From positions 1-64,000 of the forward strand of contig NZ_RKLQ01000003.1 of assembly GCF_019599405.1 (NCBI RefSeq): a stretch of DNA of 64,000 bases, given 5' to 3'. Shown piece by piece: positions 1,335 to 17,885 of the stretch. Each line of letters opens with the position of its first letter. Within the stretch, counting starts at the first letter, position 1. The stretch comes from Haloarcula salinisoli. Its GTDB lineage: Archaea; Halobacteriota; Halobacteria; Halobacteriales; Haloarculaceae. The notes beneath the pieces are model-generated. The model was not told where the DNA came from and did no database searches. It worked only from the letters and a program-made list of their open reading frames with translations. The translations under genes and the position numbers were made by a program.

Positions 1335-2228
1335 ATGTTGAAAATAGGGGAAAACGGGTGTCCACCGGTGTGTTCCGAGTGTGAGGGTAATTTACGGGAA
1401 TCGAATGCAGAAATCGTGTGTTCTGACTGTGGCCTTGTGGTCGGCTCCACCGAGTTGGATATGTCTCCGAAACGGAGCAACTCGGATACGGAATCGTCGG
1501 ATCGTCGAACAGGCGCGCCGATGACGGACGCGCGCCACGACAGGGGTCTCTCGACGAAAATCGGGTATGGCACGGGCATCGAGGTGTCCGGTTCCAAACA
1601 GCGACAGTTCGCCCGGCTTCGCCGCCAGCACAACCGTGCGCGTTTCCCGTCGAAGCGCGAGCGGAACAAAGTGTACGCGTACACGGATATCAGACAGTCG
1701 ACATCGGCCCTCGAGCTCCCGGACTCGGTTCGTGACCAGGCCTGTGCGCTGTTCGATTCCGCGCAGTCTGCCGACCTGTTGTACGGACGCTCCATCGAGG
1801 GGTTCGCCGCTGCGGTAGTGTACGCTGTCTGCCGAATGCAGTCGCTCGCTCGCACCAGGTCCGAGGTGGTGTCGGCTTCCTCCGCGACGATAGACGAACT
1901 CAACGCTGCATACGACGCGATGAACAGGGAACTCGGGTTACCGGTCGGTCCGATAGACCCCAGAGAGTATCTGGCGCGGTACGCGTCCTCCCTGGATCTG
2001 GGCATCGCCGTCGAAAACAGCGCTCAGGAGAAAGTCGGCGCGCTCAGGGACGCCCATCTCATCGGTGGGAAAAACCCCCGCGGCGTCGCCGCAGCGTGTC
2101 TCTATCAGGCCGCCCAGGATGTGAGCGTCGGTGTCACACAGGAGGCGCTGACTGAGGTCGCAGATATCTCCCGTCTGACTATCCGGTCGACGCTTTCGGA
2201 CCTCGAGTCGCTCGGCGCGGACGATTGA
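1335..2228 (+). CDS. tfb: Transcription initiation factor IIB (TFB) paralogue
   Basis: A 297-residue TFB. The N-terminal zinc ribbon has the pairs CSEC (residues 14-17) and CSDC (30-33). The B-reader/linker region follows, then two cyclin-fold repeats (about 110-195 and 205-295), the second containing GKNPRGVAAACLYQA. TFB recruits RNA polymerase to TBP-TATA complexes, and haloarchaea use several paralogues for global gene control. This one is divergent: there is an Asp/Ser-rich linker after the ribbon, and the B-finger is weak. It stands immediately ahead of a pilus-like gene cluster, so a dedicated regulator is possible. It is followed after about 105 nt by the MinD-like gene on the same strand. 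Confidence 0.9.
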   Translation: MLKIGENGCPPVCSECEGNLRESNAEIVCSDCGLVVGSTELDMSPKRSNSDTESSDRRTGAPMTDARHDRGLSTKIGYGTGIEVSGSKQRQFARLRRQHNRARFPSKRERNKVYAYTDIRQSTSALELPDSVRDQACALFDSAQSADLLYGRSIEGFAAAVVYAVCRMQSLARTRSEVVSASSATIDELNAAYDAMNRELGLPVGPIDPREYLARYASSLDLGIAVENSAQEKVGALRDAHLIGGKNPRGVAAACLYQAAQDVSVGVTQEALTEVADISRLTIRSTLSDLESLGADD

Positions 2229-2334
2229 TATCGCCGTGCCGATGGCGTCATGCCCCATCGGATAGCGGCGGCGTTGGCAAACGCCGGGACGGTATCATGT
2301 TCGGGTTGAAAAGCAATGACGACACAATCTAGTT

Positions 2335-3615
2335 GTGATAGCTATTGCCGGCGCAAAAGGTGGGTGTGGGAAGACCACGACGACACTCGGTCTCGCGCGG
2401 GCGTTCGACAGGGACGGCCGCCCGTCGTTCGTCATCGACGGCGACCAGCAACTCCCGAACGTCCACGTCGCGGCCGGGGTCGACCGCGACCCGACCGTTG
2501 CCGCTCTGCAAGACGGTGACGATACCTCCGAGGTCGCCCAGCCACTCCCGGACGCGGCCAGGGCGGGCGTACTGACGGCGCCGCAGGACCCGGACCTGGT
2601 GGACCTGGCGTCGTTGCTCGACCGGGTTCCGACCGGAGTCGAATCGTTCGTCGACTGTCCGGCGGGAGCGGGGCCGGACGCTGCCGAGCCGATATCGGCA
2701 GCGGACGTGGTCGTCATCGTGACGACCGGGACCGAACGGAGTCTCACGTCGGCCGCAAAGACGGCCGATATGGCCCGCGAGCTCGACACGCCGGTGGCGG
2801 GCGCGGTGGTAAACAAGTGCGATGAGGTCCCCCTCGCGTTCCAATCGACGTTCGACGTTCCGTTGCTGGGGCGGGTGCCACCGTGTCAGTCGCCACAGCA
2901 GGACCATCGTGCTCGGGCTGCCTACGATCATATCGCTGCCGAATTGCTCTCCAGGCTCGAGGCACCGCCAGCGCCGCCGGAGTTCCAGCAGATACGGCTC
3001 CCGCTTGGTCTCGAAACCGTCGACAGGGAGCTGGGCGGCGGCATCCCGGCGGGGTCCGTGGTCGCCTTCAGTGCGGACCCGGGTGCGCCCTCGGAGCTGT
3101 TGTTACACGCGACCACGCGCGCCAGAGGGACGCTCTATCTCACGGTCGACCAGTCCTGTGAGGAGATCCGGGCCGCCCTGTCGGACTCGGTCGTCCAGAC
3201 TGGCGACCCGACGATTCGGAAACTCGAGGGGCCGTCGATGCTCGCGGACGCGAAAGCGCTGCTCCGTCGGCTTCCGAGCCAGGTCAACGTCATCGTCGAC
3301 ACGATGGACCGCCTGGAGCAACACGACCAGGAAGCCTACCGTGATTTCCTGGGCACGCTGTCGGATGCAGTGGCGACCACGGACAGTATCGCGTTGTTGC
3401 ACACGCTGGATCGCAGCCCGACGCCGAGAAACCGTGTGACGACCGAACGCTTCGCCGACCTCGTCCTACGTGTCGACAGGGAGCAGTCCGGGAGCGCGAC
3501 CAGCTATCGGTTCTCGGTGCCAAAGACCGAGGCGGACGAGATGATAACCCCGTCGGACGGTATCGACCTGACCGATACCTTCTCCGGACGGCGGTCCGCT
3601 CTCAACGACGACTGA
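2335..3615 (+). CDS. MinD/ParA-like ATPase fused to a RadA/KaiC-like domain
   Basis: A 426-residue protein with a GTG start. Residues 1-210 are a ParA/MinD fold with the deviant Walker A KGGCGKTT (residues 8-15), IDGDQQLPN (switch I region) and SFVDCPAGAG (Walker B). Residues 220-410 look like a RecA/RadA/KaiC core, with LGLETVDRELGGGIPAGSVV, but the P-loop is replaced by SADPGAPSE, so this half probably cannot bind ATP normally. In Tad and type IV pilus systems MinD-like proteins (TadZ/CpaE) position the machine, and the degenerate RadA-like half recalls ArlH of the archaellum. That role is inferred from the neighbours. The fusion is unusual. Confidence 0.75.
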   Translation: MIAIAGAKGGCGKTTTTLGLARAFDRDGRPSFVIDGDQQLPNVHVAAGVDRDPTVAALQDGDDTSEVAQPLPDAARAGVLTAPQDPDLVDLASLLDRVPTGVESFVDCPAGAGPDAAEPISAADVVVIVTTGTERSLTSAAKTADMARELDTPVAGAVVNKCDEVPLAFQSTFDVPLLGRVPPCQSPQQDHRARAAYDHIAAELLSRLEAPPAPPEFQQIRLPLGLETVDRELGGGIPAGSVVAFSADPGAPSELLLHATTRARGTLYLTVDQSCEEIRAALSDSVVQTGDPTIRKLEGPSMLADAKALLRRLPSQVNVIVDTMDRLEQHDQEAYRDFLGTLSDAVATTDSIALLHTLDRSPTPRNRVTTERFADLVLRVDREQSGSATSYRFSVPKTEADEMITPSDGIDLTDTFSGRRSALNDD

Positions 3616-3768
3616 TACTGCCTGCTGTCCGTTCGTCCCGATAGCCATTGCTGTCAGTTGTGAACAGTCGACCGTATGCCGTTTTGCCGGGCCCGTGACA
3701 CTGGACGCCGTCGCTTCGGTGCTATGCTATGGTGAGAAAGCGACGTGGGAACACTGTGCCCGTATCGC

Positions 3769-6700
3769 TCAGCAGAACGTATCGGGGGTCTGGTCCGGGC
3801 CGAACAGCCGCTTCTCCTCGTCGACGCGGAACTTCAACATGTCGACAGACTGTGTTCCGTTGTAGATGCCCTGTGTGCTGTCGCCACAGGTGTACTGGGG
3901 CGTCCCGCTGGACGAGAGGACGACCGAGCTACGCGGTGAGAGTCGGTCGCCGAGTTCACGCTGTGCGGCCTCGGTCCCGATGAAGACGTTGACCGTCTCG
4001 GCGCGGTAGTCGTCGGTCGTGAGCTTCGACCGGAAGTGGTCCCAGTCGGCGCCGTTCTCAGCCAGCGCGATGAGGAAGGTGTAGCCGTCGTAGTTGACTC
4101 GCAACATCGGGGCCGTCCCGGCGCTGTCCGCTTCGATGACGGTGACGTTCGTATAGCCCAGGACCACCTCCTGTGCGTACGAGACGTCTCTGGTCCCGGA
4201 TATATTCTGGTCGGTGACCTCGTACGAGCCGCCGGATTGGTGCAGCGACGCCAGGTTGGTGTTACTGGTCTGCTTCGCGGAGTAGTCGATGTTGCCCTCG
4301 ACCCGCTTGTCGAAACTGCTGGATCCCTGGAAGTACGGGTCGGACCCACCCGGCCGGGCCTGTACGAACAGCGTCTTGTCTCTGGACGTGTGACGTATCT
4401 CGCTCTCGATGGCGACGACGTGGCCGTCCCCGCTCGGGTACACCTCTACTTCGAGCTGGTTGTCGTCACAGCCCGTCCTGATGTCGTCCTCATACTTGAC
4501 CGCGGGGCACTCGGCGCCATCGTAGGACCCCTGTCGCATCGAAATCGCGGCAGCCATGGCAACCTCGCGCGAAATAGTGACGGTCATCCCTGTATTCTCC
4601 TCTGGGTTGACTGCATCGGGAATCTTCGTTTTCTGCTTGAGGTTCATAAATTTCGAGAGTCTCAGGCCATCGTACTCAGCATCAAGCTGCTCTCGGAACC
4701 TACCACGGGATCGCTTCAGATCTTCGCCTTTTTTGTCGAACCGTCTGAGCCCTCTGGTATTTCCATCAGCCAAGTAGTAATCACGTTTGTAACGCTTGTT
4801 TGCCTCGAGTTTGATATCGAAGTCTTTCACCTGCCTTTTGAGGGCTTTAACCGCGGGGCTATTCCTTGCGTTCTTGGAGGCGATGCCCCATCTGGCCCGG
4901 TCCACAGCCCGTCCGGCCCCGACCGCGGGCGCCTTCTTTATGTTATCCATTGGTGTGATCAGGCGGTCCCTGATCTTATCTTCAAAGGTTCCGAACCCAT
5001 CTGGGTATTTCTGCTCTAGCTTTTTGCGATCTCTATTGCCCTTCGCGAATCTGGCGGGCTGCAACAACCCGGCAGCCATCTCGCCGTACACGCCCGCGTC
5101 CGCACAGTTCGCGTTCGCTCTGCTCGGCTCTCTCGGCATTGACCCGACTTCGGGCCACGTCGGCGTGCAGTCGAGGAAGGGATTCAGGTCCACGCCGATG
5201 TAGTCACCGATACCCTTGCTTCCTTGCCTTAGTACACCCCCACCGACCGTCACCAGCGGGAGCCCCATCTCCCAGTCGAACGCGATGGGCTCGACGCGGC
5301 CGACGTTGCGCCTGACGCCGTTGAACGACAGCGAGACGGGCTGGGCCTGGCGGACGTACGAGGTGTTGGCGACGTGGTTCTCCGGGGCGTTCGGTTGGAC
5401 CATGAAGCGGGCGTACTGTCCGTTCATATTGTAGGTCCCCGCGTTTAGCGACAGGACCCAAAACGGTGGAGCCGGGACGATGAAAGGGTACCCGGGATTA
5501 GGCAGGGGGTATACCTTTCGCATCGCCAGCCCGGTGTAATGGACGCCCTCGGTGTCTTCCCGTATCTCGTCTTTCGCCGTCGCGCCGTCGACCGAACCCG
5601 GCGGATTCGGGACGTGACTGAGCCAGGTGGGGTCGGCGTCCACCTGATAGTTCGAGTTGCTGTTGGACGAACCATTGATAATGTTGCCGGTCCCGCCGTC
5701 TATGCTGAACGGATTCGAGGCGTTATCTTTGGCACTCTTGTAGCCTTCGTGCATCGTGTCCGGCGTGTTCGGCCCGTTCTTGGTCTGCAGCACCGAATTG
5801 ATCTTTTTGATTCGTTTTTGGGTGCGATTTTGTGTTTTGTTGATATACCAGTTTACCGTCTCGACCCATCGCTTCCGCAGTTCGGCGAGGCTCTTGGTCG
5901 CCGGCGTCCGGTACTGTCCGGACCGTCCGTACTGTCCGTTGACCCTCGTGCCGTTGTAGACGAGCGCATCGGCTTCTGTGTCGTTTATCTTTAGTTCCTC
6001 GAACGTGTCATGGCTTTGATTGAGAAGCTCGGTGACAGTGGTGTTGTCTGTCGTGGCGTTGTATGCAGCTTTCCGGGTCTCGTTGAGCTCATCGATGAGC
6101 CAGTCCTGGAACGGAGTCCGCCTGTTCGTCGGTGGGCTGTGTGCCTGCGTCGACACCGAGGTGCTGATGACGTTGGTAACCTCGGTCTCGAACTCCCCGG
6201 CGGAGGTGACGTTGGTGTCCATGTTGTTCTCGAGAGACGATTCGATCTGGCCCGAGTTCGTGTTCTGCTGGTTCGAGTTGCCGCTGTAGCAGAAGAGAAC
6301 GGACGAATACGAGGCGTTCCGGTACGTCGGGTACCTGTGTGTGGTGTAACTGGTTGGCGGACAGTTCGGGTACTTGACGCCGGGCTCGTCGACGGTGGTG
6401 TTGAGACTGACGGTGGAATTCATCCTGGTCGTCGCGCTGAAGTTCACGTTTTTGACCCAGACCCCGGCCTTGCTGTCCTCGCGTATCGTCACCGGGAGGG
6501 TGATATCGTACGACCTGGTTCCGGACGTCGTGTTGCTGGTGACGCTGACGTTGCCGGCGGTCACGACCGTCAGGTTCGACGACTGGTTTAGCTGTCCCTG
6601 TGACAGTCGGGCGTTGTCCAGGCCCGACCCGACGGTGTACGTGTCGTTGATGACGTCTCTAACCTCGTCGTCGAGGCTCTGGTTACCCCAGAGCGCGTTG

Positions 6701-8004
6701 TTGGGCGAATCGATATCGATACCGAACTGGTTTGACGTGTTGTTCTGGGCCCGCCTCTGACGCACCCGGTTTCGCTGGCCTTGGACGCTGCTGCCGTACG
6801 TGCCCGGCCTACCTAACGTCTGTCCGGTCACGTTCTGGAACGCGATCCGGCCCACGCTGTCGCGGGAGAACTTGAAGGATTTGTCCCCTTGGGCCGTTTC
6901 GGCCCGGGAATCGAACTCGCTTTTGGTGAGCATATTGCCCGACTGGTTCGAAGTGGCCCAGTCCCTACTTCGGTTCACCATCTGTTCCTGGAAGTCCTTC
7001 GAGATGGAACTTCCCGTGGGGAACCCACTGTTTGTCTCTGCCTTTGATTTCAGTTGCGTACAGAGAGCTTCCGGTGCGAAAACGTCGACGGGGGAGGCCG
7101 CTGAACTGAAACGGGAGGCATAGAAGAGGCCCAGACAGCCCCCAGCAATGTCTGGTGCGTTCGTATTGGGGGTGGTTCCGTACACGTTCCGCATACTGTC
7201 GTATATTAACAAATTGGCGTACTCACGCATCTCCAGGTCGGTGATCAGCTTCTCGAAGAATCGCTCCTCCCACCTTGACGGAGCCAAGAATCGCTCGGGG
7301 ATGTGCTTCGCGTAGATAACTCCCGACAGCGTCGCCCACATCTTGCTTTTTGTCTCGGAAAACGAGGCCTGGAACTCCTTCGTCTTCTCGTGCATATTGA
7401 AGACGGCCGACTCGGTGGTGGTGTTCATATCTATCGTCCCGCTGGAGACCTGTTCACCGTCCTCGTAGACGGTAATCGACCGTTTACTGACATTCAAGAA
7501 GATGTATTCGACGGCCGTGTCTGAGCCCTTTTCGTGGCGCGTCATCTCGACTCTGTCTATGGCGTCGTTCAGGCTCGATTCGTTGTAGCGGGCTGGTGGC
7601 AATCCGATGTCGATGGTGACGTTCGCGCCCCGGAGCCGGGACTGCTGGCGCTCAACACGCTGGATACGTTTCTGCAGATTGAGGTAATACCGGAGTTTCA
7701 CGTACCGCTCGAACGTAGCGCTGTTACCCAGTGCCCGACCGGCGGCGTTGCCGGCCGGGTCCGTGACCGGTTTCTCGCCCGCCTTCTCAAGGGACTCCCT
7801 GGCGGCCTCTTTCATCGCCGCTTTGACGGCGCCTTTGGTCTCCGTGACCGCCTGGCTGGGTTCCCGGACCGTCTCTGGCTCTGACTCCTGTTGGAGCCAG
7901 TAGATGACTGTTGCACTGGAGAGCAACAGTAGTGCGGCGATTACTGCGAACGGTACGCGAGCACGGCGGTCATCTGCGAGTGCGATAGTGTTCTGTCGTT
8001 TCAT
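3769..8004 (-). CDS. Giant single-pass surface protein of the pilus-like locus
   Basis: 1411 residues. A short basic N-terminus (ADDRRARVPF) precedes one hydrophobic segment at about residues 18-36 (VIAALLLLSSATVIYWL), resembling a class III (pilin-type) signal. The rest is extracellular in character, with many N-x-S/T sequons, Asn/Gln/Ser-rich stretches, a basic helical part in the last third (KRYKRDYY...KGEDLKRSRGRF) and few Cys. The ATG at 8004 lies 2 nt after the stop of the upstream gene, so it is preferred to a GTG at 8013. It may be a pilus tip or minor pilin/adhesin. I believe the family is catalogued only as a haloarchaeal DUF in the 7280s; no function is known to me. Confidence 0.8.
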   Translation of the reverse strand: MKRQNTIALADDRRARVPFAVIAALLLLSSATVIYWLQQESEPETVREPSQAVTETKGAVKAAMKEAARESLEKAGEKPVTDPAGNAAGRALGNSATFERYVKLRYYLNLQKRIQRVERQQSRLRGANVTIDIGLPPARYNESSLNDAIDRVEMTRHEKGSDTAVEYIFLNVSKRSITVYEDGEQVSSGTIDMNTTTESAVFNMHEKTKEFQASFSETKSKMWATLSGVIYAKHIPERFLAPSRWEERFFEKLITDLEMREYANLLIYDSMRNVYGTTPNTNAPDIAGGCLGLFYASRFSSAASPVDVFAPEALCTQLKSKAETNSGFPTGSSISKDFQEQMVNRSRDWATSNQSGNMLTKSEFDSRAETAQGDKSFKFSRDSVGRIAFQNVTGQTLGRPGTYGSSVQGQRNRVRQRRAQNNTSNQFGIDIDSPNNALWGNQSLDDEVRDVINDTYTVGSGLDNARLSQGQLNQSSNLTVVTAGNVSVTSNTTSGTRSYDITLPVTIREDSKAGVWVKNVNFSATTRMNSTVSLNTTVDEPGVKYPNCPPTSYTTHRYPTYRNASYSSVLFCYSGNSNQQNTNSGQIESSLENNMDTNVTSAGEFETEVTNVISTSVSTQAHSPPTNRRTPFQDWLIDELNETRKAAYNATTDNTTVTELLNQSHDTFEELKINDTEADALVYNGTRVNGQYGRSGQYRTPATKSLAELRKRWVETVNWYINKTQNRTQKRIKKINSVLQTKNGPNTPDTMHEGYKSAKDNASNPFSIDGGTGNIINGSSNSNSNYQVDADPTWLSHVPNPPGSVDGATAKDEIREDTEGVHYTGLAMRKVYPLPNPGYPFIVPAPPFWVLSLNAGTYNMNGQYARFMVQPNAPENHVANTSYVRQAQPVSLSFNGVRRNVGRVEPIAFDWEMGLPLVTVGGGVLRQGSKGIGDYIGVDLNPFLDCTPTWPEVGSMPREPSRANANCADAGVYGEMAAGLLQPARFAKGNRDRKKLEQKYPDGFGTFEDKIRDRLITPMDNIKKAPAVGAGRAVDRARWGIASKNARNSPAVKALKRQVKDFDIKLEANKRYKRDYYLADGNTRGLRRFDKKGEDLKRSRGRFREQLDAEYDGLRLSKFMNLKQKTKIPDAVNPEENTGMTVTISREVAMAAAISMRQGSYDGAECPAVKYEDDIRTGCDDNQLEVEVYPSGDGHVVAIESEIRHTSRDKTLFVQARPGGSDPYFQGSSSFDKRVEGNIDYSAKQTSNTNLASLHQSGGSYEVTDQNISGTRDVSYAQEVVLGYTNVTVIEADSAGTAPMLRVNYDGYTFLIALAENGADWDHFRSKLTTDDYRAETVNVFIGTEAAQRELGDRLSPRSSVVLSSSGTPQYTCGDSTQGIYNGTQSVDMLKFRVDEEKRLFGPDQTPDTFC

Positions 8005-8006
8005 AG

Positions 8007-9356
8007 TTACCACGTCGTGACGACGATATCCACTTTCCCAGTCGAGATACTGCTCCGAATCGCCGATTCGTCGGTTCCGTAGATGTCCCGGACGAATATC
8101 TTCTGCTTGAACACATCGGTGAGTATCGTGTTTAGCTCCCCTGTATCGGGTGAATCACTGGTGCTTAGCCGCGCGTATACTCTGTATGCCAGACCCGGAG
8201 AGGTGCCGGCACCGGTGAGGAGTATAAGTCGCATGTACAGGTCTTCCCGGTATGTCTGGCTTGGTTTACCGCGGTCGAACTCGTACTTCGATTCGGCCGA
8301 GGGGAAATACCCCTCGACGATTGCCGCGCCGATAGACTCCGAGAGTCCGCCGGTGTACGTGCGGTTCCTGACTTCCTCGGCCGTGGCCATGCCGCTTGGC
8401 ATCACCAGCGTCGCGGTGCTGACATCCGCGTTTCTGGGCGGCTTCTCGCCTATGCCGACGGAGCCGGAGATGTACGGTCTGGCGCCGTCGGGCCGCGCGT
8501 ACGGCTGCCAGTTCGCTTGTATCTGGTAGTTATCGGTGCCCTGCCGGAGCGTCTCGTCTATTTTCGCTTGTATCTTCTCGTCGTAGTTCGTCCGGACGAG
8601 CTGGAGTGAGCTGTCGCCGACTCTCAGTTTCGACTCGTCGACGGGGTTGTAATGCTGGTCGAGAAGGTCCTCCGCGACCGCGCCGGTCGGGTTACACTTG
8701 ATGCTGTTTGTCTGGGACCGATTGAGTTTCCGCATGTGTTCTCGGGCTGGTTTCCCGTCACTGTTCAGGTACTGCTGTTGCAGCCGGTCAGAACTGTTCA
8801 CCTTGCTCTTTTTGAGTACGGGGACCCTCCCCGAGAAGTTGTAGAACTCGTCTTTGAGCCCGGTGAACCTGTAAATCCGGTGCTCTTCTTCGAGTCGGTA
8901 GTCGCTGGTGTAGTAGCTGTCCGGGTACCGGCGGTCGTTCGCGGTTTGCCCCGGATTGGAACTCCTGGCGAACCGGTCGTCTTCCTTGACCGCCCCCTGA
9001 TAATCCTTCACGACGGTGATACACGGCGGCAGGTAGCTCAGCCGCTGTTGGTTCGGGTTCGCCCTGATAGTCGCGTTCAGCAGGGCTGCGCGCTTCAGGT
9101 GGTAGGCCAGCGTCCCCGTCTCGGTGAACCTGTACACGTTCGGGCGCTTGTTGCCCAGTGAGACCCTGACAGTGTAGTTGATCTCGACGGTCGTCGTCGA
9201 AAGGAGGGTGGCTATCTCGTCGGGCTCTTCGGTGTCCGGGGGCTGTTCCGGCGATGAGTTCTGATAGAGAAAAATCATCGTGATGCCGGCGCTCAACACC
9301 AGCATCGCGATGATGACGTCGATGGACGTACTGACCGCTCGGTTCTGGGGTCGCAT
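8007..9356 (-). CDS. Pilin-like secreted protein (449 aa)
   Basis: A single N-terminal hydrophobic helix (IDVIIAMLVLSAGITMIFLY, residues 13-32) follows NRAVSTS, which resembles the haloarchaeal prepilin motif (K/R)-A/G-x-S cut by PibD. The remaining about 415 residues are hydrophilic with several N-glycosylation sequons. It is translationally close to the giant gene downstream (2-nt gap to the ATG at 8004), so the two are probably one operon and may sit in one filament or envelope complex. No enzymatic motif is seen. The family is haloarchaeal and uncharacterised as far as I know. Confidence 0.78.
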   Translation of the reverse strand: MRPQNRAVSTSIDVIIAMLVLSAGITMIFLYQNSSPEQPPDTEEPDEIATLLSTTTVEINYTVRVSLGNKRPNVYRFTETGTLAYHLKRAALLNATIRANPNQQRLSYLPPCITVVKDYQGAVKEDDRFARSSNPGQTANDRRYPDSYYTSDYRLEEEHRIYRFTGLKDEFYNFSGRVPVLKKSKVNSSDRLQQQYLNSDGKPAREHMRKLNRSQTNSIKCNPTGAVAEDLLDQHYNPVDESKLRVGDSSLQLVRTNYDEKIQAKIDETLRQGTDNYQIQANWQPYARPDGARPYISGSVGIGEKPPRNADVSTATLVMPSGMATAEEVRNRTYTGGLSESIGAAIVEGYFPSAESKYEFDRGKPSQTYREDLYMRLILLTGAGTSPGLAYRVYARLSTSDSPDTGELNTILTDVFKQKIFVRDIYGTDESAIRSSISTGKVDIVVTTW

Positions 9357-9672
9357 TAGGTCAGGGCCACCACGTCGCTGTCGCGCTCGAACGAGCTCCC
9401 GCGGACTCGTTCGCTACTCGCCTCCCGGTCCTGATTTCGACGCGTCCTCGAAACGGTTTATCACTCTCAGACCGCTGTGTGATGGACCGACGCCATTCGT
9501 CGCGTCGACGTTGGCCGAGCTTCGGCATACTATAATTGCTACACCATATCACTTAAACTAAAACACGGTAGTACTGAACGATGTCGGGTCCGGTCGCACT
9601 CGCGCCCGTCAGACGGATACCATCGTGGGATTCGTCTGACCGGTGTGGGCGATACCACTCCACGAGTCCGTC
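9357..9672 (-). promoter_or_regulatory. Spacer with promoter and hairpin inside the pilin-like cluster
   Basis: This 316-bp gap holds an 8-bp inverted repeat GTCAGACG (9606-9613) / CGTCTGAC (9631-9638), which may end or stabilise the upstream pilin mRNA. It also holds an AT-rich box, ttagtttaagtga on the minus strand (about 9548-9561), that looks like the promoter of the 449-aa/giant-protein operon. Confidence 0.5.
9361..9528 (-). CDS. Possible small leaderless ORF ahead of the 449-aa gene
   Basis: MPKLGQRRRDEW... is 55 codons, very Arg-rich and unlike the acidic proteome. Support: a TATA-like tttaag at about 9552-9557 lies 27 nt before its ATG, and its stop lies 4 nt before the 449-aa gene. 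Against: codon use is not haloarchaeal, and other frames give equally plausible short peptides, such as one ending in FERDSDVVALT whose TAA overlaps the next ATG. This may instead be a 5' leader or the eroded remnant of a minor pilin gene. Confidence 0.25.
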   Translation of the reverse strand: MPKLGQRRRDEWRRSITQRSESDKPFRGRVEIRTGRRVANESAGARSSATATWWP

Positions 9673-10146
9673 TCACGCCACGCCGACGTGGAGTCGGGCC
9701 CCTTTCACCTCCTGTGGCCCGTACCGGACGCTGATGGGGCGACTGCTGGTGTTGGCGTGGTCCGGAATCGGCGTCTCGCTGTAGCTCGCTGCCGTTCCGT
9801 CGGATTCGAACTTGACGTGTTCTTCCAGCTGTTGTTCCCCGGTGTTGTTCGTGTACGTGATGGCCACGTACGTGGTCCGGCCCTGCGGGAGGGTCTCAGT
9901 CGAGATGGCGTTTTCGAGCCCGACGCTCCTGTCGTACGCACCGGCGTTGGCTATCTCGTCCCAGATGCGTTGCAGCGCTGGTTCGCTGACGTCCCGGTCG
10001 GCAGACATATCGCTGGTGATGGCGCTGGAGTACCCCATGTACAGCGCGAGCGCAAGCGAGAACATCGCCACCGAGATGAGGACCACGACCGGCGAGGAGG
10101 TCCCGCGCGTGTCAGATTCAGAAACCGACGATAATAGTCCGCTCAC
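9673..10146 (-). CDS. Pilin-like protein (157 aa)
   Basis: Short polar N-terminus, then RGTSSPVVVLISVAMFSLALALY (about residues 14-36), which closely fits the haloarchaeal prepilin pattern (RG-x-S-P followed by a hydrophobic helix). The C-terminal about 115 residues would be the exposed domain, rich in Thr/Ser and ending in beta-like strands (ISVRYGPQEV). Its start codon lies 29 nt inside the end of the preceding gene, so the pair is translationally coupled. It is a candidate minor or major pilin processed by PibD, an inference from N-terminal form and context. Confidence 0.8.
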   Translation of the reverse strand: MSGLLSSVSESDTRGTSSPVVVLISVAMFSLALALYMGYSSAITSDMSADRDVSEPALQRIWDEIANAGAYDRSVGLENAISTETLPQGRTTYVAITYTNNTGEQQLEEHVKFESDGTAASYSETPIPDHANTSSRPISVRYGPQEVKGARLHVGVA

Positions 10147-10606
10147 CGTCTATCACCACCGTTGTCACTCTGAGTGTCCCACTGGCCTCGCTCCACTGCT
10201 CGTTGCCTTCCGCATCCGCGGTCGCTGCATCCGTCCTGTCGAGAAACGCCTGCTTGTCGTCGAAGACGTCCTGCCACTGCTCGCCGGCCAGCACTTTCCC
10301 GAGTTTCTCGTAGTGGGTGTCCCCGACGGTGACGGGCACCATCGTCCCGAAGGCGATCGATTCGTGGTTCTCCCCGCCCTCGTTTCTGAGCCCGAACCGC
10401 TTGGCACCCGCCCGGACCTCCTTGGCGTTGTGTTCGTGCTCCAGATGGGTCCCCCCGCCGCGCCCGGCCGCGTCGTCTATCGTGTTCGCGGCCGCGTCCG
10501 CGTCCGGCGGTGGTATCGACTGCATCGAGAGCACTGCCCCCAGCAGCGTGAACGTAATCATCGCCAGGCCGGCGTACATCACCCATCGGTCGGCGAAGGC
10601 CTCCAT
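10118..10606 (-). CDS. Pilus-locus protein with N-terminal membrane anchor (162 aa)
   Basis: One hydrophobic segment at residues 10-27 (YAGLAMITFTLLGAVLSM), then a hydrophilic domain with a GRGGG linker and an acidic C-terminal half. A TATA-like gtatttaaac at 10627-10636 is centred about 27 nt before the ATG, so it probably has a leaderless mRNA of its own although a MinD-type gene lies 67 nt upstream. The function is unknown; membership of the pilus-like machine is inferred from conserved-looking organisation. Confidence 0.78.
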   Translation of the reverse strand: MEAFADRWVMYAGLAMITFTLLGAVLSMQSIPPPDADAAANTIDDAAGRGGGTHLEHEHNAKEVRAGAKRFGLRNEGGENHESIAFGTMVPVTVGDTHYEKLGKVLAGEQWQDVFDDKQAFLDRTDAATADAEGNEQWSEASGTLRVTTVVIDGERTIIVGF

Positions 10607-10673
10607 GCTTTGATTCGCGCCCGATAGTATTTAAACGAAAGAACTGGGGGGCCAGCCTGCTGGCGCCGCTCTC

Positions 10674-11363
10674 TCAGCTCGACGTCCACTCGCGGTTCCG
10701 CTGGAGAATCCACCCGAGTTCGGCGAACTGCTCGGTCGCCGGATTCTCCGGGGCGTACTCGGTTATCAGTCGGTCGCGTTCCTGTGACTCGGCGATGGCG
10801 GTCTGTTCCGGAATCGCGACGGCCGACGCGTTGAACCGGTCCTGAACCTCCTCGAGTGACGACTGTACGGCGTCTCCCTCTGAGTGGACCTTGTTGAGGG
10901 CCACGGCGGCGATGGGCGTGTCCAGGTCCAGCGCCAGCTCCTTGGTCTTGGCAGCGTCGGCCAGCGCGGTCGGCTCCGGCGTCGTGACGAGCACCGTGGC
11001 GTCGGCCAGCTCGAGTATCGTCCCGACGTCGCGGGCCAGCCCAGCGGGGCTATCGATGAGTACGTTTCCGTGTCGCCGTTCGAGCGTCTCGACGACCGAT
11101 TCGAGCTTCGAGAGGTCAGACGCGCGGGCCCCCTCTAGGGACCGGCCACACGGGAGGACTGTGAGCGAGTTGAACTCTACCAGCGCTTCGGACGGGTCGG
11201 CGCGACCGGCGAGCACGTCGTGGAGGTCCGGACCCGTCGTCTGGGGCAGGTCTGCGTTCGTCAGGTCGCCGTCTACGACCACCGCGTTCAATTCGACACC
11301 CAGATTCATCGACACTGTCGTCTTACCGACCCCGCCTTTGCCTCCCGACACTGCCAGTCTCAT
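10674..11363 (-). CDS. MinD/ParA-type ATPase of the pilus-like locus
   Basis: A 229-residue SIMIBI ATPase. Deviant Walker A GGKGGVGKTT is at residues 7-16 with the signature Lys; VVDGDLTNAD is at about 29-38; LIDSPAGL carries Walker B at about 92-99; and ALNKV supplies the base-specific Asn/Lys. Unlike the fusion at 2335-3615 it is a complete canonical MinD. Its start lies 1 nt after the stop of the upstream 119-aa gene. By analogy with TadZ/CpaE or FlhG it may place the secretion machine; this is inference from neighbours. Confidence 0.88.
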   Translation of the reverse strand: MRLAVSGGKGGVGKTTVSMNLGVELNAVVVDGDLTNADLPQTTGPDLHDVLAGRADPSEALVEFNSLTVLPCGRSLEGARASDLSKLESVVETLERRHGNVLIDSPAGLARDVGTILELADATVLVTTPEPTALADAAKTKELALDLDTPIAAVALNKVHSEGDAVQSSLEEVQDRFNASAVAIPEQTAIAESQERDRLITEYAPENPATEQFAELGWILQRNREWTSS

Positions 11364-11364
11364 C

Positions 11365-11724
11365 TTAGTTGTCCACCGAGCTGATTCCCCGTGGCGGCGC
11401 CCAGTCCGTGAGCGAGTCCACCGGGTTGTCCCCCGCCGCTTCGGAGTCGACCCGCTTCAGGTCGGTGACCGTCAGTGCGGGCGATTTCGGCGCCGCGGGG
11501 CTCGCAAAGCCCAGACCGAGCGTATCCCCGGGCCTGATAGTCGCTTCCCACACTCCATCGCGCCACTCGGGAACGACCGTCCCATCGCGCTTTGGCGGCC
11601 ACGTCGGCCCGTCCAGCGTGCTCTCCAGGCGAGCCCTGTGGATGGTCGTGCGGGTGTTCGTGACGGCTCCTCGCACGAACGTGACACCGTTTTCCCGACG
11701 ACAATCCGTTTCGACTTGCATCAT
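11365..11724 (-). CDS. Uncharacterised 119-aa haloarchaeal protein (pilus locus)
   Basis: No membrane segment, with a beta-rich character: VETDCRRENGVTFVRGAVTN, then ...GVWEATIRPGDTLGLGFASP. This pattern resembles a small immunoglobulin- or CARDB-like fold, which is a weak inference. Its ATG follows an AT-rich promoter box (ttaaaagc region at about 11740-11750 on the minus strand), and it heads an operon with the MinD-type gene (1-nt gap). Function unknown. A second ATG one codon later is equally possible. Confidence 0.7.
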   Translation of the reverse strand: MMQVETDCRRENGVTFVRGAVTNTRTTIHRARLESTLDGPTWPPKRDGTVVPEWRDGVWEATIRPGDTLGLGFASPAAPKSPALTVTDLKRVDSEAAGDNPVDSLTDWAPPRGISSVDN

Positions 11725-11836
11725 GCAGAAGAAAACGCTTTTAATTCAATAAAACTCTTCGGTGACGGAAGGCGTCTCCGTGCTGCTAGCGGTACCCGCG
11801 TTCAGGTTTAAACCATATCGCGGGACCACTGTGGTT
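11725..11836. promoter_or_regulatory. Divergent promoter region of the pilus-like locus
   Basis: Two promoters face outward. On the plus strand TTTAAA at about 11807-11813 is centred 27 nt before the ATG at 11837. On the minus strand an AT-rich block (11737-11753) precedes the ATG at 11724. This arrangement would let one regulator, possibly the nearby TFB, control both arms. Confidence 0.6.
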
Positions 11837-13765
11837 ATGCTGGACAGCAACTCGGAGTATTCGCTTGGCTCTCTGGCAGCCAGGGCTGGATTCGACGGGT
11901 ACTTTGATTCGGACAGTGCCGACTCGGCGGAGACCAGTCCCATCGAGACCAGATGGGACGAGCGGCAACTGACTATCGTCACCGACGGAACCAGCTGGGA
12001 CCTCGCAGACGACGCGGCCGACCGTCGAACCGTCGTCGAGGCACTTCAGGACAGGACTGCGACCCAGCTCACGGTCGAGTCGGACAGTCTCGAATACGTC
12101 TACGACGACCGCACGCTCGACCTGTTCGCCGCGGCCGCACAGTACCACGACCTGGCCAGCAACCGCGACGGCCAGCTGGCCGAGGAGGTCGTGACCGACC
12201 CGCTCACGGTCGGCACGAAGCTCAGAGAGCGGTCCGGCCCCATCGTCGAGGTCGGCCAGGAGTCCGGGCTGCTGGCGGCCACCGACGGTATCGACAGCTA
12301 CGAATCGCTCGTCGACCCGATGGTGGGACTGACAATCGCTGGCTATCACGTCAAAAATACGCTCCCGACGGGCGCACAGCTTCGGACCACCCGGACACTC
12401 GATACCCAGAGCAAGGTACGTATCTACGACCGCCCGGACAACATCCCGCTGTACTACATCGACCTGGTCGACCTGAATCTCTCCGGCGACAAGCGGCGGC
12501 TCCTCGTCGACGCGTACGAGGCCATCGCCCACGGAGAGGTGTCGGGCGACAAGGCCGCCTCGGAGGCCATCGAGTACGTCACCGAGGACACAGACGACCC
12601 GCTGCTTGCGTCAATACTGCGGAAGTACACCACCGGATACGGCATTCTCGAGGAGTTCTTCTCGGACCCGGAGATAACCGACGTGTTCGCGACCGCCCCC
12701 ATCGACATCAATCCGCTCCGGGTGACCGTCGACGGGGAGTCGATGGAGACGAACATCCACTACTCGCCGACCGGGGTTGGCTCTCTCGGGTCGCGGATTC
12801 GCCGGACGAGCGGCCGCGCCTTCTCGCGGGCCGCGCCGACCGTCGACGCGACGGCGGACCTGAACAACGGTGTCGGGCTCCGCGTGGCCGGCGTCACCGA
12901 CCCCGTCTCGGAGGGTGTCGCCTTTGCGTTCCGAGAGAAATCCGACGACAAGTTCACGCTGCCGGCGCTGATAAAGAACGGGACGATGTCCGCCCAGTCT
13001 GCCGCGTTCCTCTCGATCGCCATGGACCGCAACGCTGCGGCGCTCATCGCCGGGACCCGTGGCGCCGGGAAGACGACACTCCTGGGCACGCTGCTGTACG
13101 AACTTCGCCCCGAGACGCGCACCGTCATCATCGAGGACACGCCGGAACTCCCGGTCAGGCCCTTACAGGAGGTCGGTCGCGACATCCAGGCGCTCCGGAC
13201 CGGCGACGAGGGCGGGCTCGAACTGTCGCCTGCGGACGCACTCCATACGGCCCTGCGACTCGGTGACGGCGCGCTGGTCGTCGGCGAAATCCGCGGCGAG
13301 GAGGCCCAGGTCCTCTACGAGGCGATGCGTGTCGGTGCGAACGCCAACGCCGTGCTGGGGACCATCCACGGTAACGGCGCCGAGGACGTCTACGAGCGGG
13401 TCGTCTCCGACCTCGACGTCCCGCCCTCGTCGTTCGGCGCGACGGACCTCGTCGTGACGATGCAGTCCTACGAGACGCCCGACGGTCGCAAGCGGCGGCT
13501 CTCGGCCATCGAAGGCGTCATCTCCGACGGTGAGGGCAACATCTCTTTCGAGTCACTGTACACCTACGACGGGCAGCGAGCCTCCCCGACCGGGCGGGTC
13601 CAGCGCGGTGAGAGCCGCTTTCTCGACGCCATCACGGCGCCAACGGAGAGCTACGCCGACCTCCTGACGGCGGTCGACGAACGCAGCGACCACCTCAAGA
13701 CGCTCGCGATGGACGGCCGCACCAGTCCCGAGGAAGTCGCCAGAGCGTACGTCCAACATCGGTGA
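11837..13765 (+). CDS. Type II/IV secretion (VirB11/TadA-like) ATPase
   Basis: 642 residues. The N-terminal about 240 residues are a poorly conserved adaptor; the secretion ATPase core spans about 260-560. Walker A GTRGAGKTT is at about residues 403-411, the Asp box IIEDTPEL just after, Walker B as GALVVGEIRGEE at about 480-491, and the His box GTIHGN at about 508-513. It should power assembly of the pilin-like proteins encoded opposite. The ATG at 11837 is chosen over an upstream GTG (11762) because TTTAAA lies 27 nt before it. It overlaps the next gene by GTGA. Confidence 0.92.
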   Translation: MLDSNSEYSLGSLAARAGFDGYFDSDSADSAETSPIETRWDERQLTIVTDGTSWDLADDAADRRTVVEALQDRTATQLTVESDSLEYVYDDRTLDLFAAAAQYHDLASNRDGQLAEEVVTDPLTVGTKLRERSGPIVEVGQESGLLAATDGIDSYESLVDPMVGLTIAGYHVKNTLPTGAQLRTTRTLDTQSKVRIYDRPDNIPLYYIDLVDLNLSGDKRRLLVDAYEAIAHGEVSGDKAASEAIEYVTEDTDDPLLASILRKYTTGYGILEEFFSDPEITDVFATAPIDINPLRVTVDGESMETNIHYSPTGVGSLGSRIRRTSGRAFSRAAPTVDATADLNNGVGLRVAGVTDPVSEGVAFAFREKSDDKFTLPALIKNGTMSAQSAAFLSIAMDRNAAALIAGTRGAGKTTLLGTLLYELRPETRTVIIEDTPELPVRPLQEVGRDIQALRTGDEGGLELSPADALHTALRLGDGALVVGEIRGEEAQVLYEAMRVGANANAVLGTIHGNGAEDVYERVVSDLDVPPSSFGATDLVVTMQSYETPDGRKRRLSAIEGVISDGEGNISFESLYTYDGQRASPTGRVQRGESRFLDAITAPTESYADLLTAVDERSDHLKTLAMDGRTSPEEVARAYVQHR

Positions 13766-15492
13766 GTCAGATGGCAGGCACACTCAGAGACGCGCTCCCG
13801 ATATTCGCGAAGCTCTACCCATGGGAGGTCGATACCAGCGACGCGCTCGCCGACGCGCTCTCGTATCTCTACTGGGACGAGTCCCCGGAGACCATCGTCA
13901 AGGCGGGCTATGGCGCCGGATTCGTCGCGTTTCTCCTCACGACACCGCTGTTGCTGATATCGCTGCCGCTGCCGGCCATCTTCGCCGTCATGCTGGCCCT
14001 GACCGCGGCGACGATTCACGCCGTCCACTCGCTACCGTCGATACTGGCCGCCGTCCAGCGAACGGAGGACCTCGGGCAGGCGCCGAATCTCATCGGTCGA
14101 ATCGTCCTGCGGATGAAGATACAGCCGTCGATCGAGAGCGCGGTCCGGTTTGCGGCCGACACCGGCGAACAGCCGCTGTACGACCATCTGAACGAACACA
14201 TCGAGCGGTCGATTGGCTCGCCCCGGAGCGGACTGCTGACCTTCGCCGAGGAGTGGGGCGACGAGTTCCCGTCGCTGCAGCGCTCGGCCCACCTGCTCAA
14301 CACGGCACAGGACGCCAGTCCCGAGAAACGCGAAGAGACACTCGACAGGGCCCTCTCCGCGATGCTTAGGGGTACGCAAGACCAGATGGCCGAATTTATC
14401 GAGACGATTCGTCGCCCGACGACCGCCCTCTACGCGTTCGGTATCATGCTTCCCCTGGCCCTCGTCGCCCTGATGCCTGCGGTCTCCGTCGCCGGTATCT
14501 CTGTCGGAATCGAGGCGTTCGCCGTCGTCTATCTTATTTTGCTTCCAAGCCTCATCGTCGCCGCCAGCGTCTGGCTGCTCACCCGGCGACCGGTCGCGTT
14601 CCCGCCGCCGGACGTCTCGCGAGGCCATCCCGACGTCGAGCGCCCCTGGTACGTCGCCTTCGGTCTCGCGCTGCTGGTCGCCGGCCCTGCAGCCGCTGTC
14701 ACGGTCTTGCTTAACGTCTCGTACATCGGTCACATCGCCGCCGTCGGCATGGCTCTCGGGCTCGTCCTCTACCTGCACTACGAGCCGGTAGTCGAGGTCC
14801 AGGAGTGGATACACGACGTCGAGAACCACCTCGTGGACGCGCTCTATACGGTCGGCCGACAGGTCGACGACAGCGAGGCGGTCGAAGCCGCTATCGCCAC
14901 CGCCGGTGACCGACTGACCGGCCAGACCGGCGAGATGTTCGAGCGGGCCGCCGGCCGCCAGGAACGGCTCCACCTCACGGTCAAGCAGGCGTTCCTCGGA
15001 CGCTACGGTGTCCTCGATGAGATTCCGAGTCCGCGGGCGCGGGCGACCGCGGCGCTGCTCGCTATCGCGGCCGAAGAGGGACAGCCCGCGGGCGAGACCA
15101 TCGTCTCGATGTCGGACCACATCGAGGAACTCCAGACGGTCGAACAGAACGCAAAGCGGGAGCTGTCACAGGTAACCGCGACACTGCAGAACACGGCGAT
15201 GATATTCGGCCCCGTCGTCGCCGGCGCGACTGTCGCCCTCGCCGACGCGATGTCGAGCAAGGGCGTCACGTTCGGTAACCTCTCGACGCAGGCGACCTCG
15301 CTCTCTATCGGACCGCTCGCCGTCGTCGTCGGCATCTACGTGCTCCTGCTCAGTGTCCTGCTTCAGCCCCTCTCTATCGGGCTTCGGCACGGACTCGACG
15401 GCCCGCTAATCGGGTTCGAGACCGGCAAATCGATGCTCGTCGCCACCCCGCTGTACGTCATTACGGTGTTTTCCGTCGGCGTGCTCGTCTAG
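13762..15492 (+). CDS. Type II secretion F / TadC-ArlJ-like membrane platform protein
   Basis: A 576-residue integral membrane protein with about nine hydrophobic segments, arranged as two similar halves. Each half has a cytoplasmic helical T2SSF-like bundle (about 100-210 and 360-480) followed by membrane helices. It is the expected inner-membrane partner of the ATPase just upstream. The reading frame starts with GTG overlapping the ATPase stop (GTGA); an ATG three codons later (13771) is also possible. Length fits the double-T2SSF archaeal ArlJ/PilC type rather than single TadB or TadC. Confidence 0.88.
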   Translation: MSQMAGTLRDALPIFAKLYPWEVDTSDALADALSYLYWDESPETIVKAGYGAGFVAFLLTTPLLLISLPLPAIFAVMLALTAATIHAVHSLPSILAAVQRTEDLGQAPNLIGRIVLRMKIQPSIESAVRFAADTGEQPLYDHLNEHIERSIGSPRSGLLTFAEEWGDEFPSLQRSAHLLNTAQDASPEKREETLDRALSAMLRGTQDQMAEFIETIRRPTTALYAFGIMLPLALVALMPAVSVAGISVGIEAFAVVYLILLPSLIVAASVWLLTRRPVAFPPPDVSRGHPDVERPWYVAFGLALLVAGPAAAVTVLLNVSYIGHIAAVGMALGLVLYLHYEPVVEVQEWIHDVENHLVDALYTVGRQVDDSEAVEAAIATAGDRLTGQTGEMFERAAGRQERLHLTVKQAFLGRYGVLDEIPSPRARATAALLAIAAEEGQPAGETIVSMSDHIEELQTVEQNAKRELSQVTATLQNTAMIFGPVVAGATVALADAMSSKGVTFGNLSTQATSLSIGPLAVVVGIYVLLLSVLLQPLSIGLRHGLDGPLIGFETGKSMLVATPLYVITVFSVGVLV

Positions 15493-15564
15493 CGCTATCG
15501 GGCCCTGTCCTCGCGGTATCTCGATTCGGTGAGGCTCCCCGCTCCGCTCACGACGCGGCGGCTG

Positions 15565-16317
15565 TCATTTTTTCAGCCACTCGGGCATCTCGTTGTCGAA
15601 ACTGAGCAGGTTCCCGAACGTTCCGTCGTCGTCTGCCTCGTCCTCGTCGCTCTGAGCGTCGCTCTGAGCGTTGCCCTGGGCGTCGCTCTGAGCGTTGCTC
15701 GCGGGCGAGCCCGAGCCATAGGTTTCGTTCATCCGCTGTTGCTGGGGCGGGAGCCGTTCGGCCGACTGACTGTTCTCGTGGCGGTCGTGGTCGTTGGCTG
15801 CCGGGTCGATCGGCTCCGCACCGTTCGAGGGCTCCGTGGTCGTCGGCCTCCCGGCGGCCGGCTGGTCACTGTCGCCATCGCCGTTCTCTGTGGGCGTCCC
15901 GAAGACGAACTCACTGGGCGTCTCCGACTCCTGTGTCCGCTTTTGGGCCAGCTGTTGCTGGTCTTGCTCCAGGCGCTCGACCCGCTCTGTGAGCGCTTCG
16001 AACGCCTCGACGCTCACCTGTCGTTCGAACGTCTCTATCTTCTTTTCCAGTCTGTCGACGGCCGCAATCGCGGCGTCGGCCCGGTCCTCGGTCTCCTGGT
16101 TGACCGACCTGACGTTTCCGACGTACCCCTCCAGTGACTCCGTCGCCCCCTCGACCGCTACCAGCCGACTTTCGAGCGCTTCTAGCTGCTCGCTCATCTC
16201 GGCAACATCCTCGATAAGCTGTGTAATCTCGCTGATCTCTTCGAACTCCACGTCTCCGTTGGTGACGGTGTTCTCGACTGCGGCCACGCGTTGTTCGAGC
16301 TGCTCGATGGTAGTCAT
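15565..16317 (-). CDS. Coiled-coil protein, probable DUF7310 type
   Basis: 250 residues. The first about 135 are heptad-like (TIEQLEQRVAAVENTVTNGD...LEALESRLVAVEG), a long coiled coil. The rest is a low-complexity linker and a short conserved-looking end, FDNEMPEWLKK. A stretch of QSDAQGNAQSDAQSDE comes from a short DNA repeat (gcgttgccctgagcgtc type, 15647-15705). The ATG at 16317 is preferred because tttatgtttaaa at 16343-16354 lies about 30 nt upstream. It is convergent with the TadC-like gene. I recall it as DUF7310, found beside these pilus clusters; function unknown. Confidence 0.72.
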   Translation of the reverse strand: MTTIEQLEQRVAAVENTVTNGDVEFEEISEITQLIEDVAEMSEQLEALESRLVAVEGATESLEGYVGNVRSVNQETEDRADAAIAAVDRLEKKIETFERQVSVEAFEALTERVERLEQDQQQLAQKRTQESETPSEFVFGTPTENGDGDSDQPAAGRPTTTEPSNGAEPIDPAANDHDRHENSQSAERLPPQQQRMNETYGSGSPASNAQSDAQGNAQSDAQSDEDEADDDGTFGNLLSFDNEMPEWLKK

Positions 16318-16466
16318 GTTAACATTGGTCCGCCGTTCACATTTAAACATAAACCAGCGAACCGCGCTTCACTGCCCACTCATCAATACGGATTTATATC
16401 TGGGAAATAAATGGCCAGTTCGAACGTGACTCGGTCACAGCACCCATCTTGTCTGCGGGCAGTCCT

Positions 16467-16925
16467 ATGATGCGCCACGTCGTGGCGGTGTTGATGACCA
16501 TCGCCCTGGTCTCGGTGTCGCTGCCGGTAATAGACGACGTCGCCGCCGACCGGAGCCAGCAGACCCTCGAAACGGAACTCTCGCAGATTCGGAACTCGGC
16601 AGAGTCACTCAGCCACGAAGAGGAGAACGCGAGAGCCAACACGAGTAATCCGCGACGAATCGTGGAACTGGACTTTCCCGATGCGTCTTTCACAACGAAG
16701 CCGGTAGAGACTGCCCGGATAACCCCGAACCACGACGCCGGTACAACCAGGATAACGTACGCGGTGGTCGGCCGCACCACCAGTCAGATGACTGTCGACG
16801 CCGTCGTCGCCGGTCCAGACAACGGGACCGTCGAACTCGGTGGCGACGAGAAACGGCGGTTCGTCCTCGAGCTCACGCACGATTCGGCAAACAACCGTGT
16901 CGTCGAGCTCCGTCGATACAACTGA
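16467..16925 (+). CDS. Secreted/anchored protein of the pilus locus, probable DUF7311 type
   Basis: 152 residues. An N-terminal hydrophobic stretch (VVAVLMTIALVSVSLPVI) followed by a short helical section (QQTLETELSQIRNSAESL) resembles a minor pilin or an anchored secreted protein. The C-terminal domain is beta-rich. A promoter box tttatat at 16393-16399 gives a leader of about 45 nt. ATGATG offers two starts (16467, 16470); a TTG at 16449 seems unlikely. A 19-codon frame in the leader (16411-16470) ends in a TGA overlapping this ATG. Confidence 0.72.
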   Translation: MMRHVVAVLMTIALVSVSLPVIDDVAADRSQQTLETELSQIRNSAESLSHEEENARANTSNPRRIVELDFPDASFTTKPVETARITPNHDAGTTRITYAVVGRTTSQMTVDAVVAGPDNGTVELGGDEKRRFVLELTHDSANNRVVELRRYN

Positions 16926-17027
16926 GCGGTCGAGCCGGCCCGTGGTCGGTACAGCGTCGCTCCGGGCCACGCGGGTCGTACGGTCGAAAAGTAATCATTA
17001 AACCGCGCCGCGACTGACCGTCTGGAT

Positions 17028-17885
17028 ATGCAACGACGAGCCGCGGCGGCGTACTTCCTGTTCTTCCTCGCCGTCAGTGTCGCAGCCTACGCGTACATTG
17101 GCGTCGCGGAGAGTCAGCGGCCGGCGGTGGAGCTGGAGGGGCCGGAGCTGACGAACGACAGCACCTTCACCAGTGGAGGCCAGACCTACACCGTCTCGAA
17201 CGTCCAGATGTCAGGGGGCGGCGGTGGCCACGGTGGCGGCGGGTCGATGGCCGCAGAGCTCTCGTGGACGAACAACTCCTCGCAGTACACTGGGACGATA
17301 GAGGCCGGGTCGACGGTCACGCAGGACAACACGACCTACGACGTCAGTATCGACAACGCCACGGGCGCGCTGACACTCACCGCCCAGCAGAACGTGACCC
17401 AGCTGCTCCAGGACGACAGCGCGGTGTACGATTCGCTGGCGACCCGTGACGGTACCGACTACGTCGTCTATCGGGCGAACAACTCCACGCAGCCGGTCGC
17501 GGAGTGGCTGCCGGACCCGGAGACCGTGACGTACACGACCGGTGACCAGTACCCCTACCAGGCCGAGGGCGGCACCCAGACGACCACCATCACCAACGTG
17601 ACCAACAGCAGCGCGACGGTCGAGTGGATCGCGCCGCGACAGAACACCGTCGAACTCAGCGAGGGCGGCAACGTCACGCTCGCCGACGGCCAGTACTTCG
17701 CGCACTTCCCCGACCACAGCACTGTCCAGGTCGTCAGTACGGACCAGTACTCACAGTACCAGGAGACCCTGGCCGCACAGAGCTACTTCCACGAGCGCAA
17801 GAACGGCCTCTGGGGTATCTCGATACTCAGCGGCATCGCGTCGGTACTGATGCTCGGGATGGCGTACCTCCCGAACCGCGGCTGA
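17028..17885 (+). CDS. Two-anchor envelope protein with Gly/His-rich insert
   Basis: 285 residues. A signal or anchor helix at about 5-23 (AAYFLFFLAVSVAAYAYIG) and a C-terminal helix at about 262-280 (GISILSGIASVLMLGMAYL) flank an extracellular domain with about ten N-x-S/T sequons and a Gly-rich patch SGGGGGHGGGGS near residue 62. It has a TATA-like region about 30-40 nt upstream and is separate from its neighbours. Function unknown; it may belong to the same cell-surface programme as the pilus genes, but nothing proves it. Confidence 0.75.
   Translation: MQRRAAAAYFLFFLAVSVAAYAYIGVAESQRPAVELEGPELTNDSTFTSGGQTYTVSNVQMSGGGGGHGGGGSMAAELSWTNNSSQYTGTIEAGSTVTQDNTTYDVSIDNATGALTLTAQQNVTQLLQDDSAVYDSLATRDGTDYVVYRANNSTQPVAEWLPDPETVTYTTGDQYPYQAEGGTQTTTITNVTNSSATVEWIAPRQNTVELSEGGNVTLADGQYFAHFPDHSTVQVVSTDQYSQYQETLAAQSYFHERKNGLWGISILSGIASVLMLGMAYLPNRG

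Follow-up and report, generated by a model that had tools for sequence, protein, structure and literature searches.

A probable Tad-like type IV pilus locus with MinD proteins on a tRNA-Cys genomic island of Haloarcula salinisoli

Results

The first 64,000 nucleotides of contig NZ_RKLQ01000003.1 of Haloarcula salinisoli (the window; G000:C3 in a haloarchaeal genome of 4.03 Mb) carry a locus of twelve genes, extending from a TFB gene at 1335 to a DUF7311 gene ending at 16925, that probably encodes a haloarchaea-specific, Tad-like type IV pilus machine which depends on the peptidase PibD and is positioned by dedicated MinD proteins. The TFB gene is followed by a MinD-DUF7125 fusion, a minus-strand block (from its upstream end DUF7857, MinD, DUF7283, DUF7285, DUF7284 and DUF7286), a secretion ATPase with a TadC-like protein, DUF7310 and DUF7311. 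An initial annotation of this DNA began the locus at the same position but carried it 960 bp too far, to 17885, and its gene list was mainly right, with DUF7857 and DUF7311 missed. The additional gene in that longer interval, encoding a 285-residue protein with two transmembrane segments (17028-17885), was rejected as a component of the pilus as it belongs to the chromosomal backbone in 10 of 10 sister regions, most of them without pilus genes. The features are:

868-943, plus strand: tRNA-Cys(GCA), insertion hotspot and left edge of the island; the site is empty in sister locus L224
917-957 and 1018-1058, plus strand: 41-bp direct repeat of the tRNA-Cys 3' end (97.6% identity), a likely integration scar
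1335-2228, plus strand: TFB paralogue with two cyclin repeats and a zinc ribbon slightly under cut-off
2335-3615, plus strand: MinD (residues 1 to ~190) in fusion with DUF7125, which is KaiC/ArlH-like and lacks the Walker A lysine
3769-8013, minus strand: DUF7286, giant, N-terminally anchored and extracellular; candidate tip protein or adhesin
8007-9356, minus strand: DUF7284, class III prepilin-like (NRAVSTSIDV)
9673-10146, minus strand: DUF7285, class III prepilin-like (TRGTSSPVVV); candidate main pilin
10118-10606, minus strand: DUF7283, with an N-terminal anchor and no class III signal
10674-11363, minus strand: MinD of the MinD1-type clade, partner of DUF7857
11365-11724, minus strand: DUF7857, small and beta-rich, directly upstream of this MinD in every case
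11762-13765, plus strand: TadA/VirB11-type secretion ATPase, likely start ATG 11837
13762-15492, plus strand: TadC-like membrane platform (T2SSF), PF00482 under cut-off, adjoining the ATPase in the conserved operon
15565-16350, minus strand: DUF7310, cytoplasmic coiled-coil protein
16449-16925, plus strand: DUF7311, with an N-terminal anchor and a likely start at 16467; closes the locus on the right

The ATPase matched PF00437 (6.8e-19), TIGR03819 (1.3e-40, below the cut-off of that model) and PDB 2oap (1.3e-26), with TadA, FlaI/ArlI, afGspE and CpaF among its matches, and for most homologues the alignment begins only far into the longer frame, so that a start at ATG 11837 is more likely than one at 11762. 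The TadC-like protein reached 19.3 bits against the PF00482 cut-off of 25.2 and is conserved beside the ATPase across loci. Sixty loci were sampled around matches to the ATPase or DUF7283, chosen by those two families only, and searched with profiles built from the window proteins; among the 61 sequences, window included, matches were found for DUF7286 (54), DUF7284 (52), DUF7285 (53), TadC (55), DUF7310 (51) and DUF7311 (52). All eight families occur on one strand in the order DUF7310-DUF7311-ATPase-TadC-DUF7283-DUF7285-DUF7284-DUF7286 in 40 of the 60 loci. The eight families are thus one conserved operon, of which the window locus is a rearranged version, and their clustering greatly exceeds chance. 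The earlier description of a Tad/type IV-pilus-like locus is well supported. The ATPase is present in 105 of 145 genomes and DUF7283 in 107, which contain all 105. In the ATPase tree the window copy falls in a subgroup (support 1.0) composed mostly of copies from another haloarchaeal family and two plasmids, separate from the canonical copy found in its genus. Haloterrigena plasmids (L009:15827-19595 and L010:14031-17802) carry the subgroup ATPase and TadC with no annotated pilin genes nearby. In two genomes (L121/L120 and L100/L099) the pilin block and the ATPase-TadC block lie at distant sites, and the machine therefore appears tolerant of separation of its blocks. DUF7310, the conserved coiled-coil partner, can be set beside arCOG07564 by description only.

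Two window proteins carry the R-A/G-x-S signature before a hydrophobic helix noticed in the initial annotation, DUF7285 as RGTS and DUF7284 as RAVS, and a FlaFind-type class III motif recurs in their homologues (49/53 and 35/52, respectively). The motif is scarce in DUF7283 (4/55), DUF7286 (1/54) and DUF7311 (14/52); DUF7283 and DUF7311 have an N-terminal anchor and mostly lack it, and 45 of 54 DUF7286 homologues share R-[AG]-R-[VI]-P-[FLY]-A, which the FlaFind-type rule does not accept. Four pilin-like proteins had been counted, and prepilin signals bear this out for DUF7284 and DUF7285 but not for DUF7283 and DUF7286. No prepilin peptidase was found within the locus and, as had been anticipated, PibD would be needed in trans: a PibD-type peptidase is encoded elsewhere in the genome (PF06847 at G000:C2:113225, 34.1 bits, above cut-off).

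Both window MinDs have the deviant Walker A motif KGGxGKT (GGKGGVGKTT and GAKGGCGKTT) and match MinD structures. DUF7857 adjoins a MinD in 36 of 36 loci counted, and the adjoining MinDs form one clade (37/37, support 0.83). DUF7857 itself is present in 105 of the 145 genomes, 103 of them in common with the 105 ATPase genomes, leaving two exceptions each way (Fisher p 4.7e-30, a test that ignores shared ancestry). The pair is usually unlinked to the pilus locus; 46 genomes, counted by hand, have DUF7857 and the ATPase on one contig at a separation of >100 kb. Pair and pilus are both missing from some members of genera g5, g11, g17, g18, g37 and g41, in which the pair is mostly unlinked to the pilus and other members have both; the case of g12 counts little because pair and pilus genes are linked there. 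The structure model of DUF7857 (predicted local distance difference test score 63.5) yielded only weak beta-sandwich matches, with E above 1e-3. In Haloferax gibbonsii (L131) the order TFB, MinD, DUF7857 fits HVO_0226, a TFB (PMC7714728), HVO_0225, which is MinD1 (PMC11588486), and probably HVO_0224, which from gene order would be DUF7857. By this gene order, rather than by H. volcanii sequence, the pilus-linked MinD neighborhood fits that of Haloferax MinD1. In L131, L132, L134-L138 and L144-L146 another MinD-like protein, reminiscent of TadZ/CpaE, is encoded at a distance of a few kb from DUF7857, MinD and TFB; its Walker A (GGAGTTR or similar) lacks the usual lysine.

The second MinD was described initially as a MinD-RadA fusion. 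The MinD portion stands, and the other half is DUF7125, a KaiC-like domain (PF06745, 3e-8) that lacks the Walker A lysine in every homologue aligned, for which reason an active RadA was rejected; in the structure model of the fusion, confidence extends to the MinD half only. A stand-alone DUF7125 follows a MinD in L151-L155, which span three families of haloarchaea; a motif search placed a MinD before it in 19 of 28 named loci, and H. volcanii MinD2 followed by HVO_0596 has the same arrangement (PMC11588486). The MinDs of the fusions form a clade (0.98) nested inside the group of MinDs that precede DUF7125 (0.99); the fusion derives from a MinD2-HVO_0596-type pair. A secretion ATPase, sought as a link to HVO_0596 via PilB1, was not found in two stretches of 20 kb that flank the DUF7125 gene of Haloferax, so that the equation of this gene with HVO_0596 is drawn from gene order and PMC11588486. 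In most loci of the ATPase subgroup the fusion lies ~670-790 bp from DUF7857-MinD, at the position held canonically by TFB, and L081 and L141 have both fusion and TFB near the pair. The distribution of DUF7125, with 140 of 145 genomes positive, does not follow that of the pilus (Fisher p 0.61).

The window TFB matched PF00382 in two stretches (3.3e-30) and PF08271 narrowly under cut-off (2.5e-5), and shares 49-59% identity with one TFB group and ~35% with the others. This group often stands beside DUF7857-MinD, at ~650-770 bp from DUF7857 in the majority of canonical loci. It is represented in 141 of 145 genomes, among them most of those without the pilus, and is retained where the pilus is lost. 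A TFB dedicated to the pilus was accordingly rejected, which weakens the earlier claim that the locus has a TFB of its own. The co-occurrence across genomes on which that annotation had proposed to check the gene set holds for the pilus families as one operon and, unlinked, for DUF7857-MinD; TFB and DUF7125 are not tied to the pilus. In the available part of a study of CsmR, the HVO_0226 TFB variant is listed in the archaellum network and pilin genes, unnamed there, are reported as raised in the same mutants (PMC13286277).

In sister genomes the backbone consists of the 285-residue gene, tRNA-Lys and DUF7119, with tRNA-Cys beyond. The site is empty in L224 (G155), where tRNA-Cys lies ~230 bp from the 285-residue gene with no gene between, while L222 (G156) has this island with an identical gene order, collinear with the window, and other sisters have different cargo. 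The tRNA-Cys site is a chromosomal insertion hotspot, and the pilus locus is an island inserted there. Between the window and L222 synonymous divergence (dS) is 0.67-1.29 for island genes and 0.13-0.37 for the two backbone genes measured, and the ratio of nonsynonymous to synonymous divergence (dN/dS) is 0.19-0.57 over all 12 island genes, the most divergent being the exposed DUF7286 and DUF7284 (40-42% identity, dN/dS 0.50-0.57). The island genes are old or exchanged alleles under purifying selection. The same genome has a canonical operon at C1:355000-374900, to which the window copy is extra, and a third, scattered set on C1 near 860k, 1167k and 1413k (L073, L072 and L141). One of these three places has pilins and DUF7311 without an ATPase, another ATPase, TadC, DUF7310 and DUF7286, and the remaining one DUF7857-MinD, a fusion and a TFB. 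In sister G161 (L223:3876-6269) the tRNA-Cys hotspot has an N6 adenine methylase resembling Eco57I/MmeI enzymes. No relatives were found in viral contigs.

Discussion

The genes present and their conserved operon, the prepilin motifs and a PibD in the genome, together with the island structure, the purifying selection and the joint inheritance of DUF7857-MinD, make a PibD-dependent pilus machine with its own MinD proteins the probable function of this locus; filament formation, the roles of both MinDs and a function in adhesion or cell contact are inferred. Under such a model, PibD encoded elsewhere would trim the class III prepilins DUF7285 and DUF7284, and the TadA-type ATPase on its TadC platform would push them out as a filament across the membrane and surface layer. 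DUF7283, DUF7311 and the giant DUF7286 may be anchored accessory or tip parts, and DUF7310 a cytoplasmic coiled-coil coupler. The dedicated MinD and DUF7857 would place or switch the machine on the membrane, and the other MinD, whose KaiC/ArlH-like fusion partner is dead, may couple to the motor, perhaps in the manner of ArlH with ArlI. A wider version, in which MinD1 and DUF7857 are the dedicated spatial regulator of the pilus across haloarchaea, DUF7857 acting as adaptor or MinE-like partner and the fusion as a second adaptor joining a MinD switch to the motor, is plausible but tentative, and we consider it somewhat less likely than not to hold in full.

Several observations count against the main model. 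The TadC-like platform scores under the Pfam cut-off (PF00482), profiles of DUF7285, DUF7283 and DUF7857 found nothing significant among solved structures in a PDB sequence search, and no gene product of the locus has been observed in a filament. G045 and the fragmented G121 have DUF7857 without the ATPase, and G100 and G129 have the pilus without DUF7857. The pattern is looser in Haloferax, in which the four genomes without DUF7857 comprise one without DUF7283, one with a 44-residue remnant and two retaining DUF7283 (G145 and G152, the latter in 720 contigs). Deletion of all four H. volcanii MinDs gave the same motility defect as deletion of MinD2 and MinD4 (PMC11621097), so that no phenotype is known for MinD1, and an assay of this pilus was not encountered in the available part of that source.

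The two MinDs and the TFB might instead be accidental neighbors or general regulators outside the pilus machine. The near-universal TFB group and DUF7125, neither of which tracks the pilus, are in keeping with this, as is the action of H. volcanii MinD2 on archaella and cell shape (PMC11588486). We nevertheless regard it as doubtful, since DUF7857-MinD tracks the pilus (p about 5e-30) though unlinked in most genomes and the two are absent together within the six genera named above. It is also unlikely that the machine serves protein secretion or surface display, with pseudopilins forming a short piston, DUF7286 or others as cargo and no long pilus. A small and abundant major pilin is not evident, the largest gene encodes an anchored extracellular protein of 1,414 residues (DUF7286) that along with DUF7284 diverges fastest, and type II secretion is driven by the same type of machinery; against these points, two operon families have class III prepilin signals and pilB-pilC loci elsewhere in haloarchaea function in pili and adhesion (PMC4858521, PMC6491452). 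That the copy in the window is decaying or silent, an extra delivered by an integrative element, with the canonical copy doing the work, would suit the two further sets in this genome and the tRNA-Cys location with its scar repeat, but is improbable given twelve open frames, the same island in G156 and purifying selection throughout.

Haloarchaeal pili of this kind were outlined by Makarova et al. in 2016, with a coiled-coil protein restricted to haloarchaea and with TFIIB homologues (arCOG01981) and MinD (arCOG00589) named as regulators tied to pilus loci (PMC4858521). The earlier statement that this gene set lacks a functional study is plausible, and our literature search found no paper naming DUF7283, DUF7285, DUF7286, DUF7310, DUF7311 or DUF7125; the kind of locus, however, is known from that work. 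The locus resembles subclade 4F there in its secretion ATPase and TadC-like protein, own pilin set, large surface protein and, by description, coiled-coil protein, and differs in the unlinked DUF7857-MinD partner and the MinD-DUF7125 fusion, which are absent from the main text of PMC4858521. The H. volcanii MinD1-TFB neighborhood (HVO_0225, HVO_0226) fits the H. gibbonsii order TFB, MinD and probably DUF7857 but is unlinked to the pilus, whereas all lie in one island in the window; likewise, MinD2-HVO_0596 (PMC11588486) is a MinD followed by a DUF7125-like gene, fused into one protein beside the pilus locus here. The bacterial Tad system compares in its TadA/CpaF-type ATPase, T2SSF-like platform, MinD-like protein (TadZ/CpaE) and anchored minor pseudopilins, but no Flp pilin, TadE/F/G domain, TadV peptidase or secretin was found in the locus with Pfam and NCBIfam. 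The archaellum (ArlI, ArlJ, ArlH) has a homologous ATPase and a KaiC/ArlH-like partner, while DUF7125 in the window is part of a MinD fusion and has lost its P-loop lysine. Identity with the pil-2 system of Hbt. salinarum was judged unlikely, as a 6.9-kb unit of seven genes (PMC4292770) would leave little room for DUF7286.

The locus is ordinary in kind, an extra and horizontally mobile copy of a pilus machine common to most haloarchaea; what is new is the DUF7857-MinD partner in trans, the way in which the fusion arose, the island and the lack of support for a pilus-only TFB, which set apart what is pilus-specific (DUF7857-MinD) from what is merely adjacent (TFB and DUF7125). Less expected is that a MinD-type protein with no known function travels with a pilus, even from hundreds of kilobases away. 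H. volcanii MinD1-3 are reported to have no described function and no known MinE-like partners (PMC11621097), MinD2 being studied in the companion PMC11588486. The co-inherited MinD-DUF7857 pair offers MinD1 both a concrete target and a specific candidate for its partner and, if the two do act as a regulator of the pilus, a MinD so far without a function would gain one.

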